From: Acidobacteriota bacterium
GTDB lineage: Bacteria > Acidobacteriota > Terriglobia > Terriglobales > Acidobacteriaceae
Direction of reading: 5' to 3'
DNA: 64,000 bases
NCBI GenBank assembly: GCA_013289795.1
Contig: JABCZH010000004.1
Location: 1-64,000, forward strand
The notes beneath the pieces are model-generated. The model made no database searches, was not told where the DNA came from, and saw nothing but the letters and a program-made list of their open reading frames with translations. Made by a program: the position numbers and the translations under genes. Below, in pieces: positions 10,731 to 31,305 of this stretch. Position 1 is the first letter of the stretch. Each line of letters begins with the position of its first letter.

Positions 10731-10754
10731 TGGTGAGCGCGGCAGGACTCGAAC
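10731..10754. repeat. Partial tRNA-Lys 3'-end copy (old attachment scar)
   Basis: These 24 bases are identical to the first 24 bases of the 46-bp attachment repeat at 10857, then diverge. The preceding GGGAGGGACC is also shared with the sequence in front of the real att copy, so about 126 bp look tandemly duplicated. Confidence 0.75.
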
Positions 10755-10856: not shown

Positions 10857-10902
10857 TGGTGAGCGCGGCAGGACTCGAACCTGCGACCCATGCCTTAAAA
10901 GG
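10857..10902. repeat. attL: 46-bp direct repeat of the tRNA-Lys 3' end
   Basis: It is identical over 46 bases to 31230-31275, which is the 3' part of the intact tRNA-Lys gene including the CCA. Beyond 10902 the tRNA 5' half is missing. This is the displaced end copy left by site-specific insertion into the tRNA gene. Confidence 0.93.
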
Positions 10903-11722: not shown

Positions 11723-12187
11723 CTACCGGTCCCTTAGATGATCGCTGATCTCCTTCCTTATCAGGTAGCCGCCAAGGAAGCACACAACACCGAACCACGC
11801 GGCGCAGGCGACTCCAATGACCAGGATCGCTCCTCCGGGTTCTGGCATCGCACGTGCCGCCAGCAAGCTGCACGCGATCCAGAATGCCACCCACAGAAAC
11901 GTACGAAGTCTCTTGACGCGAACCGTGACCTTCGTAAGTCCACTGTCGACTTGTTCGCATTGCACTTCGACGCCGCTGACAAAAGTGAAGGGGTTTAGAC
12001 CAACCCAGTTACGGTGACTGTATAGCTTCGGCTGAATCCCTACCACTGCAATCGGGGTTCTTACCGATTCAACAGAGAGATTGGCAGCCCTGTACTTGAC
12101 ACCCTCTTTTGATAGAAGGCCTTCGATCCGCTCCGAAGCTGCTTGAGCGGGCAACTGACAAACGAATTCGTAGGTCTTATGCATCAT
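11723..12187 (-). CDS. Putative Rhs immunity protein, two TM segments
   Basis: ATG 12187 overlaps the stop of the Rhs fragment as TAATG, giving 154 aa (MMHKTYEFVCQLPAQ...). The N-terminal half is soluble with alternating strands; the C-terminal half has two hydrophobic segments (FLWVAFWIACSLLAARAM and the AILVIGVACAAWFGVVCFLG region) and a basic tail. Position directly after an Rhs tip with overlapping codons is what is expected of an immunity gene; a membrane immunity protein would suit a membrane-acting toxin. No family recognised. Confidence 0.65.
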   Translation of the reverse strand: MMHKTYEFVCQLPAQAASERIEGLLSKEGVKYRAANLSVESVRTPIAVVGIQPKLYSHRNWVGLNPFTFVSGVEVQCEQVDSGLTKVTVRVKRLRTFLWVAFWIACSLLAARAMPEPGGAILVIGVACAAWFGVVCFLGGYLIRKEISDHLRDR

Positions 12188-13230
12188 TAGCCTGGCCCTG
12201 ACCTGCATGTGTAATTGGTTACCTCACGGGCCGCTCCCGGAGACCCGATTCCAAGACCAAACGAAGCACCCGACCATCCGCCTTTTCCTGGAGTCCAGAA
12301 TATCGAGCCAGAGAACAGACCTGCGGAGACGCTAATCGAGTTGAAGGGGCCTGTCCAGCTACCGCTTCCCCAGGCCCAGACCGATTGAACGGAGGCGCCC
12401 ACGTCCAATCCGGCACCTGTTCCGCTGTAAGTATAGTTATACGTGGTTGCGCCGAATGACTGTCGGTTCGCGCCCCAAACTCCGCCTCCCCCAGAAGTGA
12501 ACGGATTCACCGTTGCGACATTTCCAGAGGCCCCCATAGAAAGATGGTTTCCACTGGGTACCGCACAGGGCGTTTTCTGCGGAGTTTGCGGATCGCCGTT
12601 GTTTGGGCCACCTGGCGGGGAGCCTGGCCCTCCGCTCGGCGCGGACCAATAGAACATGTCAGCGTTGCCGTAAACTAACCAAGCCTGACCTGAAAGGAGG
12701 GCTAGCATCCTCCCGAGCTCGGAATTGAGGAAGGGCAGAATGTCTGGATTTGATGTGGCAATAGCAGTTGATGTGATTGACAGGGTGTATAGGCTTAACT
12801 CATTCCAGGTCACACCGATGTTGCCGCTGGTTGGATCATTGGTGGAGCACTGCCGATTCGCAGGACTGTTGCAGAGTGCCATGAATAAGCCGGACGGATC
12901 AACGAAGGTCGTGGGGTTGTTCCCCACGTAGGCATAGCGGTTCCAGGTCTGCGGATTCCAGGGATTCACCGCCGCAACCCCTGCCGGGTCGGGCGTCAGC
13001 CAGCGTCCCTGCGTCTTGGCGTATTCCCTGGCTCCGAAGTGGTCGGCGTTGTTCTCCGAGTCCCAGAAGCCGTCCGCGAACCCGGTGAAATCTACGAATG
13101 GACTCGCGGTTTCGCTGAAACCGTCCCCAAACGCCAGGTTGGTTTCGGTTCGTTGCACACTCCCAGTATAGTCGGTAGTCACACGGGGCGTCCCCGAATG
13201 CCCGGGGGGCGAAATAGTACCCCTTCGCAA
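12187..13230 (-). CDS. Rhs C-terminal fragment with variable tip
   Basis: The frame holds the end of an Rhs core (HFGAREYAKTQGRWLTPDP, WNRYAYVGNNPTTFVDPSGL, about residues 64-115) and then a 230-aa Gly/Ser/Asn-rich tip with no motif I recognise. Full Rhs proteins exceed 1000 aa; here the large N-terminal barrel and any secretion signal are missing, and the frame starts inside repeat R1 at a TTG. It is best seen as an orphan Rhs-CT cassette that can be recombined onto a full-length Rhs gene elsewhere. The immunity candidate is coupled downstream. Confidence 0.75.
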   Translation of the reverse strand: MRRGTISPPGHSGTPRVTTDYTGSVQRTETNLAFGDGFSETASPFVDFTGFADGFWDSENNADHFGAREYAKTQGRWLTPDPAGVAAVNPWNPQTWNRYAYVGNNPTTFVDPSGLFMALCNSPANRQCSTNDPTSGNIGVTWNELSLYTLSITSTAIATSNPDILPFLNSELGRMLALLSGQAWLVYGNADMFYWSAPSGGPGSPPGGPNNGDPQTPQKTPCAVPSGNHLSMGASGNVATVNPFTSGGGGVWGANRQSFGATTYNYTYSGTGAGLDVGASVQSVWAWGSGSWTGPFNSISVSAGLFSGSIFWTPGKGGWSGASFGLGIGSPGAAREVTNYTCRSGPG

Positions 13231-13526: not shown

Positions 13527-14555
13527 TCACGGCTTATTCTCCTTAACCTCAACTACCAAAGGTAGCCGTTCTTGGACTGCCGGAAGCGGTTTCCCAAAAG
13601 CCTTGGCGAAGTGCCGCGCTAGTTCTTCCTTCGTATCAGATATTCGCATCAGGGTGATGACGGTCATTATCTGGCGATCTAGATGTTCATTTCCGGTATC
13701 TGCCGTTAAGTATTGGAAATGTTTACGCTTCCGGTAGCCATGATCAGTGACGGGGTTGAGTCTCCGCAACTCTTCAAGTACGCCAGCAGGTAGCTCCCCA
13801 TAAACATATTTATTGATTAACTGACCAACAAAAGGGGTACGCTTCGCATTGCCGGGTCTATAGGGCCAATCGTGAATCCGGTAAATCTGGCGGAAAAATT
13901 CCTCAGGAAAAGTTCGCGTCCAAGGCCGATACTCTTCCAAGACGTATGCCTCTAAAATCCGTGCAAGTTCATCCTTTGCCCGCTGTTCCTGATAGCCAGT
14001 CGCCTCGTCCACCAGGGCAATGATTCCAACGCGAGCAAGCCCTTTCATTAGGATGTAACAGGCCGCTGCAATATGCTCTTGGCCTTTTAGGAGCTTGTCT
14101 TCATCGCGGGCATTGACGTAAACCTCGCAGACCATCGGGAGCAACATCGCGTCATATCCGAACGCTCTTCCGCCCTTTACGGTGCGAAAGACTATCGGAG
14201 TCGTCGACTGCATTAACTCTTCTGAAATAAAGGGTTTAAGGTTCTCAGCAACCAAAAAAGGCGGCAGTCCGTCGACTAGCTTCAAACTGCCAGTTCCGGC
14301 CTTGGCTTTCGCGGCTCTACCAATCGCCGTAAGGAAGGTTTCCTGAGTCAATACACGTTTTCCATTCCGAAGCACAGCACAAGCGATGTTTCGACCACCA
14401 ATTACCAATTCGCCGGAATGTGTTGCTTGCGGTAGATTGTGTCCCCATCTGGCGTCGGCCCCGCTCTGCGCAATAGCACTGCGTTCCTCCTTCGACAGCT
14501 TTTCCGCTCTGGCTTTACCACCCAAGGATTGATCTGAAGGGTCTTTGTCGCTCAC
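13527..14555 (-). CDS. P63C domain-containing protein
   Basis: 342 aa from GTG 14555, with GGAGGT five bases upstream. The N-terminus (SLGGKARAEKLSKEERSAI...GADARWG) is the usual lead of this family. The C-terminal part has the P63C pattern: FFRQIYRIHDWPYRPGN, GQLINKYVYGELPAGVLEEL, KRKHFQYLTADTGNEHLDRQ, VITLMRISDTKEEL. P63C proteins occur in phages and mobile elements and have no established activity. Here it is the passenger of the inserted element and is read away from the other cargo operon. Palindromic half-sites upstream suggest repression. Confidence 0.88.
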   Translation of the reverse strand: MSDKDPSDQSLGGKARAEKLSKEERSAIAQSGADARWGHNLPQATHSGELVIGGRNIACAVLRNGKRVLTQETFLTAIGRAAKAKAGTGSLKLVDGLPPFLVAENLKPFISEELMQSTTPIVFRTVKGGRAFGYDAMLLPMVCEVYVNARDEDKLLKGQEHIAAACYILMKGLARVGIIALVDEATGYQEQRAKDELARILEAYVLEEYRPWTRTFPEEFFRQIYRIHDWPYRPGNAKRTPFVGQLINKYVYGELPAGVLEELRRLNPVTDHGYRKRKHFQYLTADTGNEHLDRQIMTVITLMRISDTKEELARHFAKAFGKPLPAVQERLPLVVEVKENKP

Positions 14556-23916: not shown

Positions 23917-24132
23917 ATGCCGCTCGACATCCGAGTCCGTTTTGGCCGCGCCATCCGGCGAATTCGTGAAGAGCAAGGGATCACTCAGGAAGAAGCTGCG
24001 GAGCGATGCTCACTTCATCGGACCTATTACAGCGGCATTGAGCGGGGAATCAGGAACGTGTCGCTGGTGAACGTCGAGAAAATCGCCAAAGGACTGAAAA
24101 CGATCCTGCCCAAGATATTTGAACGAGTGTAA
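23917..24132 (+). CDS. XRE-family helix-turn-helix regulator
   Basis: 71 aa Cro/CI-type HTH: FGRAIRRIREEQGITQEEAA, ERCSLHRTYYSGIERGIRNV, LVNVEKIAKGLK. It is a single-domain DNA binder immediately upstream of the 3.2-kb KAP fusion gene and likely regulates it (inference from position). Confidence 0.88.
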   Translation: MPLDIRVRFGRAIRRIREEQGITQEEAAERCSLHRTYYSGIERGIRNVSLVNVEKIAKGLKTILPKIFERV

Positions 24133-24364: not shown

Positions 24365-27300
24365 ATGTCAGCAGCTACTGAGCCACAACCGGTACCCAAG
24401 GGCGATCCGCGCTTGGCAGTGCCCGCCGTGCTGATCACCCTCCATGGTGAAATTATCGGCAAGGCAACCGTTTTGTCGTCGGAGATCGCGGTGACGACCG
24501 CTGAAGTGGCCAAGTTAGCTCAATCCAAGTCCGGGGAGATCCCGCGTCCTGGCCCCGGTTCCGTGGCCACATTGATGCTCACTTTCCCGCAGTTTGCGGG
24601 CTCTCCTGGACTGCGCCCCGTTCCTGTCTCCCTTCATGCGATTGATGGGGAGCTCGGGTTCGGCGTATTGAGACTTTCGGGGGCGCTTCCGCTTCAGGTC
24701 CCGCAGGGTTTGCTTGGAACCGGCGAGATTCCAGCAGAAGGGGCCGAATGCGACGTTCTCTACTCCGACATCGAGCGAAAAGTTTTCTCTCAGCTCTCCG
24801 GTCGAGTCAGTGACCTACCAACCCAAGGGTTTGCCGTTCAGCTGGAATGGGATGCAACACCAAAAGGGAGTTGGCCCCTTCCGCTAGCTGGCGCTCCAGT
24901 CTTCGCTGCGTATCGGCTAGTCGGGATTGTTGCCAAGGGACCGTTGCGCCTGGTAGACGACCCCCGGTCTGGGCCATACATCGTTGAGGTACTGAGCGTG
25001 GCCTCGATGTCAAAAAGCGCAGTGACGCCAGTAATCCGCGATTTGTTGCCGTGGGTAGAAAGTGAACTGAACACGCCGAGGCCATTTCCCTTGAGTGCTC
25101 GGGATAAGAAATTTTCGCACGCCTCCGGAAGGAGTGCGCAACCGAGGGAGGAGGAAGATACGGAGTCCAAGCCAGCGGCTCCGAGCGATACGGAGTTATT
25201 TGCGCGGATGAGTCCGTCGAGCCGGAGCGCGCTGGAGCGTGCGGACGGGATGCGCCGCTCTGCGGGCCAGGATACGGTACACATGGAACACCTCATCGCT
25301 GGCCTTTTCGACAAGACGGACGGCCCCACTCAGCGGCTACTAGGTCTCGCTGGGATCGACCGCCCAAGACTGGCGCAGATTATCCAGGACACAGTCGGGA
25401 GTGTCATCCCGCAAAGCTACAGAGGACCAGAACTAACCAGGTTGCCGCGCATGTCAAAACATGTACGCGACGCTTTGACCATGGCAGCTGCGAAAGCGGA
25501 AACGACAGGGTCGATCCGAAGCAGACACCTGCTGTACGGTGTGCTCTCCGTAGGAGAGTGCAGGATGGTGAAAGCGCTGACCAACCTCGGCGTGACCCGG
25601 GACGGCATCATTCTTGACGAAGAACAAGCTGCGGAGCCTGTGTCGCGCCTCAAAAATATTACGAACCCTGCGCAAGAGGCCGGGGCAAATCCGACGCCAA
25701 AGTTAGACTCCGATCTTTGGAGTGAGGAGGACCGGCTGGGGTATGAGGCGTATGCGCGAACGATTGCGAGTCTGATCACGCACAGGGAGACCAGGCCGCC
25801 GCTGACCATTGGGATTAAAGCGCCTTGGGGTGCGGGGAAGACCACGTTAATGAAGCGTGTGCAGCATTTGCTGGACGGGTACGCAAGGTTGAGCGAGGAG
25901 AGCCAGATTGGAATCCTGCACGAGTGGCAGCCTTCGCAGCTGACATTGCGAGAACTGCTGCGGGAGCTAAAAGGTAGCTCCAAGCCTACGAAGCTGGAAA
26001 CGAAGCGGAGCACGGAGGGAGAAGCGTATGGCCTGTCGCCGCGCACCACGGTTTGGTTCAACGCGTGGAAGTATCAGACGAGCGAACAGATATGGGCGGG
26101 CATGGCACATTGCATCATTAGTCAGATCACGGCACGGATGGGAGTGAAGGAACGTGAGTTGTTCTGGTTGCGGTTGCACGCGCGACGGGTGAACGCCGAT
26201 GAAGTACGGCGAAAAATGTACGAGATGATCGCGCGGCAATTACTCCCACTGGCGCTAGTTGTGGGTGTCGCGGTTGCGATCGTGATCTGGGTCGCGGCAG
26301 CGATTCAACTTCTCCTGCCCTACCACTCCGTGATTCGGGGAGTTTCTATTCTGGCGGGTCTGATCGTGTTGGTTTGGAAAGGCTGGAACAAGCTGGGAGA
26401 CAAGGCTGCCGGAACGGTGCGCGATTTAGTCCGGGAGCCCGCGTACGAAGGAAAGATGGGTTATCTGCATTTAGTCGAATCGGACATGCGGGAGGTGCTG
26501 CAACTGGCGACTGCGGCTTCGGTGACGAAGGATAATCCGAAAGGGGATCCCCTGGTGATTTTTGTGGACGATCTGGATCGCTGTGTTCCTAGTAAGGTTG
26601 CGGAAGTGGTGGAGGCAATCAATCTTTTTCTGTGTGGGGATTATCCCAATTGCATTTTTGTTCTAGGGATGGAGCCTGGGATGGTAGCGGCGGCGCTGGA
26701 AGTCGCCAATAGAGATGTGATTCAGAAGGCGGAGGAGATGGGACTGGCGGACCGGACGGCGCCGGTGGGTTGGCGGTTCATGGAGAAGATTGTGCAGCTA
26801 CCGATCATGATCCCTCCTCCGTCTGCGGCGGGACGGCGGATGTATTTGGGGTCGCTCACCGGTCTGGCAGGCGAGAGTCCCGACGAGACGTTTGTTATGG
26901 CGGGCTCTGTGCCGATGCTTCTGGGGCCGCTGCCCATTTCCCGACCAGCGCAGCACGGGGCTGACGAAGAGGCGAAGGTTCAAACCTACATCGGGAAGAT
27001 CGGGCCAGCCAAGAGTTCAAGTGAGGCAGCGGCAAGAAGCCTGAACCTAGTTGCGCAAGCTCCGGTCGAAGAACGCTGGGCGGCGCGGGAGGCCGGCAAC
27101 AGGGTTTACGAACAAACGTTGAGTGAGCGTGATCCCGTGATGGCGCAGTTTCTGGAAGACGTGGCGCTGTGGGTGGACGGGAATCCGCGGCAGATCAAGA
27201 GGTATTTGAACGTGTTCCGCTTTTACAGCACATTGCGGCATAGCTTGCGGTTGGAGGGTGTGATCCCCAGCAAAGATTTGCCCTCGGATGAAGTCCTGGC

Positions 27301-27589
27301 GAAGTTTGTGGCACTGAGCATCCGGTGGCCGCACGCGGTCGATTGCCTGCGCGTGAAGAAAGACCTGAAAATGGACGGCGCGGACGGGCGGAAAGTGTCG
27401 TTGCTAGAGTTGCTGGAGACAGAAAGCAAGAAAATTGCCGGTGATGATGTGGCTGCGGACGCCGCATGGGAGAAGTTAGTCGGCAAGAATGGTCTAGGGA
27501 TGGGCGCGTGGGCGGAACAAAGGGCGTTCCGGCAGTTCTTGTCGCGTGGGGAATCTCTGTACAAGAAGGGGGGGCATGGGCTGTGGTGA
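24365..27589 (+). CDS. Pseudoprotease-Clp_N-KAP NTPase fusion, candidate defence protein
   Basis: 1074 aa; ATG preceded by GGAGG. Residues 1-220 follow the trypsin-like pattern, but the catalytic triad appears lost: VTTAEVA where the His would be, ELGFGVLRL for the Asp, LPLAGAPVF for the Ser. About 275-430 resembles Clp_N repeats (ALERADGMRR...VHMEHLIAGLF, RSRHLLYGVLS). About 460 onwards is a KAP P-loop NTPase: Walker A APWGAGKTTL (about 487), inserted two-TM hairpin (about 622-678), Walker B VIFVDDLDRC (about 735), then FVLGMEPGMVAAAL. KAP NTPases include phage-exclusion PifA; Clp_N and dead proteases occur as sensor modules in bacterial conflict NTPases. Membrane-anchored defence is an inference. 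Confidence 0.85.
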   Translation: MSAATEPQPVPKGDPRLAVPAVLITLHGEIIGKATVLSSEIAVTTAEVAKLAQSKSGEIPRPGPGSVATLMLTFPQFAGSPGLRPVPVSLHAIDGELGFGVLRLSGALPLQVPQGLLGTGEIPAEGAECDVLYSDIERKVFSQLSGRVSDLPTQGFAVQLEWDATPKGSWPLPLAGAPVFAAYRLVGIVAKGPLRLVDDPRSGPYIVEVLSVASMSKSAVTPVIRDLLPWVESELNTPRPFPLSARDKKFSHASGRSAQPREEEDTESKPAAPSDTELFARMSPSSRSALERADGMRRSAGQDTVHMEHLIAGLFDKTDGPTQRLLGLAGIDRPRLAQIIQDTVGSVIPQSYRGPELTRLPRMSKHVRDALTMAAAKAETTGSIRSRHLLYGVLSVGECRMVKALTNLGVTRDGIILDEEQAAEPVSRLKNITNPAQEAGANPTPKLDSDLWSEEDRLGYEAYARTIASLITHRETRPPLTIGIKAPWGAGKTTLMKRVQHLLDGYARLSEESQIGILHEWQPSQLTLRELLRELKGSSKPTKLETKRSTEGEAYGLSPRTTVWFNAWKYQTSEQIWAGMAHCIISQITARMGVKERELFWLRLHARRVNADEVRRKMYEMIARQLLPLALVVGVAVAIVIWVAAAIQLLLPYHSVIRGVSILAGLIVLVWKGWNKLGDKAAGTVRDLVREPAYEGKMGYLHLVESDMREVLQLATAASVTKDNPKGDPLVIFVDDLDRCVPSKVAEVVEAINLFLCGDYPNCIFVLGMEPGMVAAALEVANRDVIQKAEEMGLADRTAPVGWRFMEKIVQLPIMIPPPSAAGRRMYLGSLTGLAGESPDETFVMAGSVPMLLGPLPISRPAQHGADEEAKVQTYIGKIGPAKSSSEAAARSLNLVAQAPVEERWAAREAGNRVYEQTLSERDPVMAQFLEDVALWVDGNPRQIKRYLNVFRFYSTLRHSLRLEGVIPSKDLPSDEVLAKFVALSIRWPHAVDCLRVKKDLKMDGADGRKVSLLELLETESKKIAGDDVAADAAWEKLVGKNGLGMGAWAEQRAFRQFLSRGESLYKKGGHGLW

Positions 27590-28980: not shown

Positions 28981-29178
28981 CTACTTGCTTTGCCTAGCAG
29001 CTAGATGCGTCCCGATGGAGACTATTCGTTTGACTTCACTGGCGGGAATTCGTACAAGGCGACCTACATGCACGAAAGTGATTTTGGACTCGCTGACCCA
29101 GCGACGGACGCAAGAAGGTTTGACGCGCAGTGCCGCTGCAAATTCTGGGATCGTCAGTAAACCGTAAGTTTCGCTCAT
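28981..29178 (-). CDS. Excisionase-family HTH protein
   Basis: 65 aa from ATG 29178, preceded by GGAG. MerR/excisionase-type winged HTH: YGLLTIPEFAAALRVKPSCV, RRWVSESKITFVHVGRLVRI, PASEVKRI. It is likely the recombination directionality factor for the integrase 1 kb away, and may also regulate. A longer frame starts at 29208. Confidence 0.85.
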   Translation of the reverse strand: MSETYGLLTIPEFAAALRVKPSCVRRWVSESKITFVHVGRLVRIPASEVKRIVSIGTHLAARQSK

Positions 29179-29304
29179 GGCGTAGCTTTCTCCTTTGGAG
29201 TCGGCCACGTGGTCCGTGGTCCGTTGAAATAGATCACACCAGATGAAAGGACACCTGTCACTATGGAGAAAACTGGAGAGGGATTTATTCCACGGAGGAA
29301 ATTG

Positions 29305-29906: not shown

Positions 29907-30077
29907 ATGAACAAGGTGAGCAACGCGGCAAGCCTAATGGGCCGTAAGAGCGCGAAGGTACGACAAGAGAAGTGGGGACGGAAGGAATTCGTGCGCCGGA
30001 TGCAGGAGTGGGGAAGGCTGGGCGGCAGGCCAAGAAACGGCAAAGCGAAGGACAGAAACAAACGAGGTGAGCGATGA
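29907..30077 (+). CDS. Small basic protein coupled to integrase
   Basis: The start is placed at ATG 29907 (56 aa) because the earlier ATG 29895 overlaps the -10 box. The sequence is highly basic: RKSAKVRQEKWGRKEFVRRM, QEWGRLGGRPRNG. Similar short basic proteins directly precede tyrosine integrases in related islands. Its stop overlaps the integrase ATG (ATGA). DNA binding is likely. The transcript would be almost leaderless. Confidence 0.75.
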   Translation: MNKVSNAASLMGRKSAKVRQEKWGRKEFVRRMQEWGRLGGRPRNGKAKDRNKRGER

Positions 30078-31294
30078 TCTATAAACGGGGATGTAACAAG
30101 AAAGGTCCAAACGAGACTTGCAGCAAGTGCGGTGAGCGTGGCTCCTGCGGTGTCTACTGGTACAAATTCATGTGGAACGGCAAGCTCGTGCGGGAATCCA
30201 GCAAACAGGGCAACGATAAGGTTGCGCGACAGATGGAGGCCGCGCACAAAACGTCTCTTGCGAAGGGCGAGGTCGGCATTCGTGAGAAGAAACCCATTCC
30301 CACCTTGGCCGAGTTCCTTAAACATCGCATCGAACCTTGGGCCAAGCAGCGCACTTCGTGGATTTGGTATCGAGCCGGTATCCGCGCCCTAGTTCGATAC
30401 AGGCCGTTGGCCAACATGCCGCTAAATGAGATTCAGGGTGAGCAGGCGGGGGACTTTGCAGCCCATCGGCTGTCCGAAGGTCTTCAGGCGGGCTCGATAA
30501 ACAGCTCGCTGCGCGTATTACGGAGGGTCCTCCATCTGGCAGTCGAGTGGGGAGTATTGGAATCCGCCCCGAAAATGGGACTCTTGTCCGGGGAACGTCG
30601 GCGGGAGCGCGTTGTAACGGTCGAGGAAGAGGCTCGTTACCTTGCTGTTGCATCGCCGCTTCTCGCGTCGGTGGCTGCGGTCCTGGCTGACTCAGGTCTA
30701 CGCCCTGACGAGTGTCACAGATTGCGGTGGGAGGACATTACCTGGGTAAACGGGCGCAACGGAACTCTCCTTGTGACTCATGGGAAGACTGCGGCAGCGA
30801 GACGGGTCCTGCCTATGAGTTCGAGAGTCAGATCAATCTTGGAGCAACGATGGGCTGAAACGGGGAGACCCTCTGAAGGGTGGATTTGGCCTGCACCGAC
30901 TAAGACCGGGCACATCGACCATTCGAGTCTCAAGAAGCAGCACACCAAGACACTGAGACTGTCCGGTGTTCGCCCATTCGTGCTCTACAGCCTGCGCCAC
31001 ACCTTCCTAACACGGCTCGGTGAGTCCGGATGCGATGCTTGGACATTGGCCCGCGTTGCTGGACACAGTTCAGTTGCAATCTCCAGCCGCTATGTTCATC
31101 CATCAGAAGATCTAGTCCTAGCTGCCATGTCTCGACTGGGTAGGCACAATTCTGGGCACACCGAGAATCACGACGAGACGCCGAGTGGATTAAGAACGGC
31201 GGCAATGCCAGAACAATCAGAAGGATACATGGTGAGCGCGGCAGGACTCGAACCTGCGACCCATGCCTTAAAAGGGCATTGCTCTACCAACTGA
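30074..31294 (+). CDS. Tyrosine-recombinase integrase of the island
   Basis: 406 aa. The N-terminus carries a Cys cluster (GCNKKGPNETCSKCGERGSC), then an arm/core-binding region, and a catalytic domain with Arg in LADSGLRPDECHRLRW, Lys in HGKTAAARR, LYSLRHTFLTRL (H-X2-R box as RHTF), GHSSVAISSRY and the nucleophile Tyr in SRYVHPS. The last about 20 residues (VSAAGLEPATHALKGHCSTN) are the antisense reading of the tRNA-Lys gene, so the stop lies beyond the attachment site. It catalyses integration into and, with the excisionase, excision from tRNA-Lys. Confidence 0.95.
   Translation: MIYKRGCNKKGPNETCSKCGERGSCGVYWYKFMWNGKLVRESSKQGNDKVARQMEAAHKTSLAKGEVGIREKKPIPTLAEFLKHRIEPWAKQRTSWIWYRAGIRALVRYRPLANMPLNEIQGEQAGDFAAHRLSEGLQAGSINSSLRVLRRVLHLAVEWGVLESAPKMGLLSGERRRERVVTVEEEARYLAVASPLLASVAAVLADSGLRPDECHRLRWEDITWVNGRNGTLLVTHGKTAAARRVLPMSSRVRSILEQRWAETGRPSEGWIWPAPTKTGHIDHSSLKKQHTKTLRLSGVRPFVLYSLRHTFLTRLGESGCDAWTLARVAGHSSVAISSRYVHPSEDLVLAAMSRLGRHNSGHTENHDETPSGLRTAAMPEQSEGYMVSAAGLEPATHALKGHCSTN
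31142..31160. promoter_or_regulatory. Candidate integrase arm-type sites, right
   Basis: AGGCACA (31142) and GGGCACA (31154) have the same 12-base period as the pair at 11056-11074. They lie inside the integrase gene, about 70 bases from attR. Confidence 0.5.
31230..31275. repeat. attR: 46-bp repeat inside tRNA-Lys
   Basis: Identical to 10857-10902. It covers the tRNA 3' end from CCA through the anticodon arm. The crossover must lie within these 46 bases. Confidence 0.93.
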
Positions 31295-31305
31295 GCTACG
31301 CGCCC
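31230..31305 (-). tRNA. tRNA-Lys(TTT)
   Basis: 76 bases with encoded CCA (31230-31232). The acceptor stem GGGCGCG pairs with CGCGCTC with one G-U. The D-arm TAGCTCAGTTGGTAGAGC, anticodon arm ATGCC-CTTTTAA-GGCAT (anticodon TTT) and T-arm GGTTCGAGTCC are all present. It is the integration target of the island and was rebuilt intact by the insertion. Confidence 0.97.

Follow-up and report, generated by a model that had tools for sequence, protein, structure and literature searches.

A trypsin-fold pseudoprotease fused to a ClpC-type N domain and a membrane KAP NTPase on an integrative island of an Acidobacteriota bacterium: a candidate conflict switch

Described KAP systems and the present locus

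KAP NTPases include proven anti-phage proteins, and Tmn, QatA and PifA are KAP proteins known as components of phage defence. Tmn combines a KAP NTPase domain with a pair of transmembrane segments and blocks T2, P1, phiVi and phiX (PMC11846954). In predicted conflict systems KAP ATPases occur in place of STAND NTPases (PMC8195603), and the MoxR-vWA/EAD conflict systems use KAP ATPases as interchangeable parts alongside ClpN repeats and trypsin domains that are inactive (PMC7159879, PMC8195603). The same kinds of parts are found in the protein described here.

The window, that is, the whole stretch of 64,000 nucleotides that was analysed, comprises positions 1-64,000 of contig JABCZH010000004.1, to which the coordinates refer, and belongs to the genome of a soil Acidobacteriota bacterium (GCA_013289795.1). 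A preliminary description had proposed that one gene of this window encodes a catalytically dead trypsin-like domain joined to Clp_N repeats and a membrane-inserted KAP NTPase, and that the gene adjoins an XRE regulator and lies in an island; the regulator and the island are both present (Table 1). The reading frame is not due to chance, because it is 1074 aa long and has a full-length homologue of 54% identity (L006). The scan for promoters and terminators returned nothing above chance. No paper found in the literature searched describes the exact three-part architecture of pseudotrypsin, Clp_N and KAP NTPase, and an earlier mention is possible.

The protein resembles Tmn in that its KAP NTPase domain is predicted to contain a membrane hairpin and in being apparently encoded by a single gene, and it differs from Tmn, as described in that source, by the presence of the pseudotrypsin and Clp_N domains; the likeness, taken from this description, covers the KAP domain and the hairpin only (PMC11846954). 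The nearest named profiles to the KAP core are QatA and PifA. QatA of the QatABCD system (NCBIfam NF041923) is the best-scoring named family (E 1.1e-28), but the score of 100 bits is far under the equivalog cut-off of 600 and no QatB, QatC (QueC-like) or QatD (TatD-like) was present among the neighbouring genes examined. Therefore, we rejected membership in QatA. The PADLOC profile of PifA, the T7 exclusion protein, matches the KAP core with an E of 2.8e-17, but the matches are partial and the N-terminal modules lie outside them. Relatedness to Tmn, QatA and PifA rests on the generic KAP core. In the MoxR-vWA/EAD systems the parts are distributed across several genes with MoxR, vWA or EAD adaptors (PMC7159879, PMC8195603), whereas here they form one polypeptide, and no MoxR or vWA gene was detected among the flanking genes examined. 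The N-terminal domain shares the S1 fold with the trypsin-fold pseudoprotease MamO (5hma; Z 16.3) and, unlike MamO, is fused to Clp_N and a membrane NTPase.

Domain build of the protein

The Pfam trypsin domain does not match the 1074-aa protein, and four-sequence profiles of the N-terminal domain gave nothing convincing against Pfam and PDB. The trypsin-like fold claimed in the preliminary description was recovered by structure prediction, as was the Clp_N fold. Residues 1-245 were modelled by AF2 with four homologues as input (pLDDT 77); Foldseek returned 848 PDB matches for the model at E <= 1e-3, with S1-family proteases throughout the matches listed (chymotrypsin, DegS, HtrA, Rv3671c and the S1C domain of RsgI9 among them), and VIA aligned about 190 of its residues with solved S1 proteases (Z 16-17). 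On the basis of this model, residues 5-235 adopt the double beta-barrel fold of chymotrypsin and trypsin.

To set the register of the catalytic triad, we combined matching strand and helix positions with a profile alignment (hhalign) to four HtrA-like proteases that this genome encodes (E 0.017, but a reported probability of only 2.7%). E47 lies in a helix after strand 41-45, G98 ahead of strand 99-104 and A175 within LAGAPVF, all of which are the expected places, and the earlier reading of the replacements (HV to EV, D to E/G, GxSG to LAGA) was correct. Located by motif, the His/Asp/Ser positions are also replaced in three of three homologues (R/R/I in L006, E/G/P in L057 and G/N/G in L024). 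The domain has thus been kept while the triad was given up in all four sequences, which identifies it as a pseudoprotease and led us to reject an active protease. Elsewhere in the sampled genomes the N-terminal domain was not found beyond G254 and G662; a match in G307 (E 0.008) was rejected as a CRP-like regulator, judging by its sequence.

The Clp_N repeats that had been proposed proved to be a full ClpC-type N domain with two repeats: Pfam matched residues 296-342, phmmer against PDB matched the ClpC N domain across both repeats, and Foldseek with the full-length model retrieved ClpC1 N domains (values in Table 1). In Clp unfoldases the ClpC-type N domain is a module for binding of substrates and adaptors. 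The Glu of the first repeat (E308) is invariant in five of five aligned sequences, and the second repeat is without the Glu found in the ClpC-type proteins of the same genome. In B. subtilis ClpC both Glu positions bind phospho-arginine, and since the second one is gone, the phospho-arginine site is at most half kept. The same genome also encodes a stand-alone protein of 270 aa that has two Clp_N repeats but lacks an ATPase domain (L081:8231-9043, G000:C9) and looks nearer to the ClpC-type N domain than to that of the 1074-aa protein.

The third part is a KAP NTPase (Pfam KAP_NTPase, residues 460-955), in which the Walker motifs are intact, as the preliminary description had it, and transmembrane segments are predicted inside the P-loop domain. 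An 11-member alignment that spans several phyla has G489, G491, K492, D735, D736 and R739 as invariant positions, among others, and hydropathy places comparable hydrophobic segments between the Walker motifs of the homologues. The full-length model, from whose alignment one row of a plasmid record was left out, has a mean pLDDT of 67.8 and a pTM of 0.50, and its KAP part is of moderate confidence only.

Table 1. Features of the locus (positions in the window; residues are those of the 1074-aa protein)
Feature	Position	Strand	Basis
Second att copy, far end of island	10857-10902		46-bp perfect repeat
XRE-family HTH gene, 71 aa, 232 nt upstream of KAP gene	23917-24132	+	HTH_3 E 1.1e-15
Pseudotrypsin-ClpN-KAP NTPase gene	24365-27589	+	ORF, ATG start, 1074 aa; full-length homologues L006 (54%), L057
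Predicted trypsin-fold pseudoprotease domain, residues 5-235	24377-25069	+	AF2 pTM 0.81; Foldseek/VIA to S1 proteases
E47 at catalytic His position (AVTTAEV)	24503-24505	+	Profile alignment to four HtrA-like proteases, same genome
G98 at catalytic Asp position (ELGFGVLRL)	24656-24658	+	Profile alignment to four HtrA-like proteases, same genome
A175 at catalytic Ser position (LAGAPVF)	24887-24889	+	Profile alignment to four HtrA-like proteases, same genome
Double Clp_N (ClpC/ClpB-type N domain), residues 275-420	25187-25624	+	Pfam E 7.6e-7; ClpC N domain E 1.5e-5; Foldseek ClpC1 N domain TMt 0.78
KAP NTPase core and conserved C-terminal region, residues 447-1074	25703-27586	+	Pfam E 2.4e-29; conserved across subfamily
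Walker A GAGKTT, residues 489-494	25829-25846	+	Motif intact
Predicted transmembrane hairpin, residues 620-676, between Walker A and B	26222-26392	+	Hydropathy peak 2.94; model helices 611-646, 654-676
Walker B FVDDLDRC, residues 733-740	26561-26584	+	Motif intact
Island gene with Walker A-like motif, 379 aa	27807-28946	-	ORF; weak ATPase matches only
Excisionase-like HTH protein	28981-29208	-	phrog_66 excisionase E 1.2e-6
Tyrosine integrase, runs into tRNA gene	30074-31294	+	Phage_integrase E 7.1e-19; phrog_1 E 9.1e-48
att copy at tRNA 3' end	31230-31275		46-bp perfect repeat
tRNA-Lys (ttt), integration target	31230-31305	-	ARAGORN; Rfam

Mobile island, module swapping and a possible conflict switch

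The island measures 20.4 kb and is bounded by a perfect repeat of the tRNA-Lys 3' end; Rfam reported tRNA only. The integrase, the excisionase and the perfect att repeat together mark the KAP gene as cargo of a mobile island. In the part of the island that was scanned, with four proteins compared against PADLOC, no recognised defence gene turned up beside the KAP gene.

The KAP core is sporadic: of 300 genomes sampled from this family, two have it, the genome of the window included, and 17 relatives were found in named genome contigs. Their N-termini are diverse. By Pfam, L012 has TIR, L007 has PG_binding_1, L058 and L023 have Clp_N, and L057 has IF2_N and a weak Clp_N. The core of L007 is 43% identical to that of our protein and its N-terminus is different. 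Conversely, in L024 pseudotrypsin and ClpN (46% identity in Clp_N) are joined to a KAP core for which the alignment yields only fragments at 21-28%. Since L024 shares the N-terminal modules and L007 shares the core, modules move both ways. The extra IF2_N of L057 (L057:6851-10513; Pfam E 8.2e-7) is situated between pseudotrypsin and Clp_N, and inspection of the L011 translation revealed an IF2_N-like segment at its N-terminus; these two cases suggest that KAP proteins use IF2_N as an adaptor module. In actinomycete relatives (L013-L015 and L020-L022) the inspected translations show, ahead of the KAP core, a long array resembling WD40 or beta-propeller repeats. Such mixing and matching of modules is typical of bacterial conflict proteins. 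Neither a peptide-pattern scan of viral contigs nor a tblastn search of phage records detected a relative.

We propose, with a probability of about one half, that the 1074-aa protein is a single-gene, membrane-anchored conflict switch of the immune type, carried as cargo by the integrative island. The NTPase motifs are invariant and the triad is discarded, which points to an energy-dependent switch with binding-only N-termini. The sporadic core with swapped N-termini (TIR, PG_binding, beta-propeller, IF2_N and Clp_N) argues for such a switch, as do the mobile setting, the nearest profiles QatA and PifA, the KAP defence protein Tmn and the occurrence of KAP ATPases in place of STAND NTPases in predicted conflict systems. 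What argues against it is that no recognised defence gene was found among the island genes tested and that the searches of viral contigs and phage records found no relative. If the proposal is right, the dead trypsin-fold domain would be a retained module for binding of peptides or proteins, with the ClpC-type N domain as a further module for recognition or for adaptors, and the ligand of the N-terminal part could be a phage product, a host protein altered by infection or a co-recruited partner. Once the ligand is bound, the KAP ATPase would be free to assemble and to bind ATP or hydrolyse it. The hairpin in the inner membrane would in turn perturb the membrane or bring in a partner that kills, so that the infected cell would be stopped.

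A bolder reading would be a guard made of one protein, in which the dead trypsin-fold domain would imitate a host protease or bind its substrates, so that it becomes the docking site for a protease inhibitor of the phage or for a peptide that arises from infection, the ClpC-type N domain would provide a second check and the KAP NTPase would disrupt the membrane. We regard this version as doubtful; if true, it would be a pseudoprotease-based immune receptor built on a non-STAND NTPase. The conserved membrane NTPase core with its swapped recognition modules offers a natural set of domain swaps, by which sensor and effector could be located, and the conserved dead protease next to a Clp recognition domain is a testable case for pseudoenzymes as sensors of infection or damage in bacteria.

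Cellular roles and the par-locus homologues

One could argue that the protein is instead a sensor of proteostasis or envelope stress without a role against phages. The ClpC-type N domain and the pseudoprotease would then capture proteins that are damaged or tagged, at the membrane, and the KAP NTPase would remodel them or signal. The substrate- and adaptor-binding role of this N domain in Clp unfoldases and the invariant Glu308 speak in favor of this reading, and DegS, HtrA and the S1C domain of RsgI9 are among the proteins which the pseudoprotease fold resembles. However, a gene with such a scattered distribution in the family, borne by an island and linked in its relatives to unrelated N-termini including TIR, is unlike a housekeeping chaperone, and we consider a stress sensor unlikely.

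It could also be that the protein is an organiser of chromosome and membrane that is native to the parA-parB operon and ties segregation to the membrane, the island copy being a relocated relative. In the two closest homologues, L006 and L057 (KAP core 68% for the latter), parA and parB flank the gene and share its orientation, and the chromosomal order, with gene identities judged from sequence, is rsmG-parA-[gene]-parB (L006:8784-14761 and L057:5506-11456, both from Acidobacteriota). The divergence between L006 and L057 is 61% for the KAP gene, 66% for ParB and 59% for RsmG; this parallel is consistent with inheritance together with the par locus and does not amount to proof. Yet parA and parB are adjacent, with no KAP gene between them, in the genome of the window and in G084, 298 of the 300 family genomes are without the core, and the remoter homologues examined are located elsewhere. 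Therefore, the possibility raised beforehand that homologues occur only in housekeeping contexts does not hold for the homologues as a whole, which are also found at other places and with exchanged N-termini, but it does describe the two nearest relatives. Their placement weakens a pure defence reading and keeps a cellular role in play, even if the organiser itself seems improbable to us.

A maintenance or superinfection-exclusion gene that serves the island under XRE repression is very unlikely: the integrase, the excisionase and the neighbouring XRE regulator would suit it, but the par-locus homologues have no integrase nearby among the ORFs listed (judged from the starts of their sequences) and a multi-domain protein of 1074 aa is large for an addiction toxin.

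The island and its border hold three further elements. A third, partial copy of the tRNA-Lys 3' end (24 nt, 10731-10754) is situated just outside the far att site and is perhaps the scar of an earlier integration. Inside the island, a short C-terminal RHS/YD-repeat fragment (12187-13230; TEN_YD-shell E 3e-5, below cut-off) is apparently a remnant, and the protein encoded at 13527-14555 has a P63C domain (Pfam E 4.8e-32; phrog_2384 E 5e-114), a kind of protein frequent enough in phages to have a family of its own in phrog_2384.
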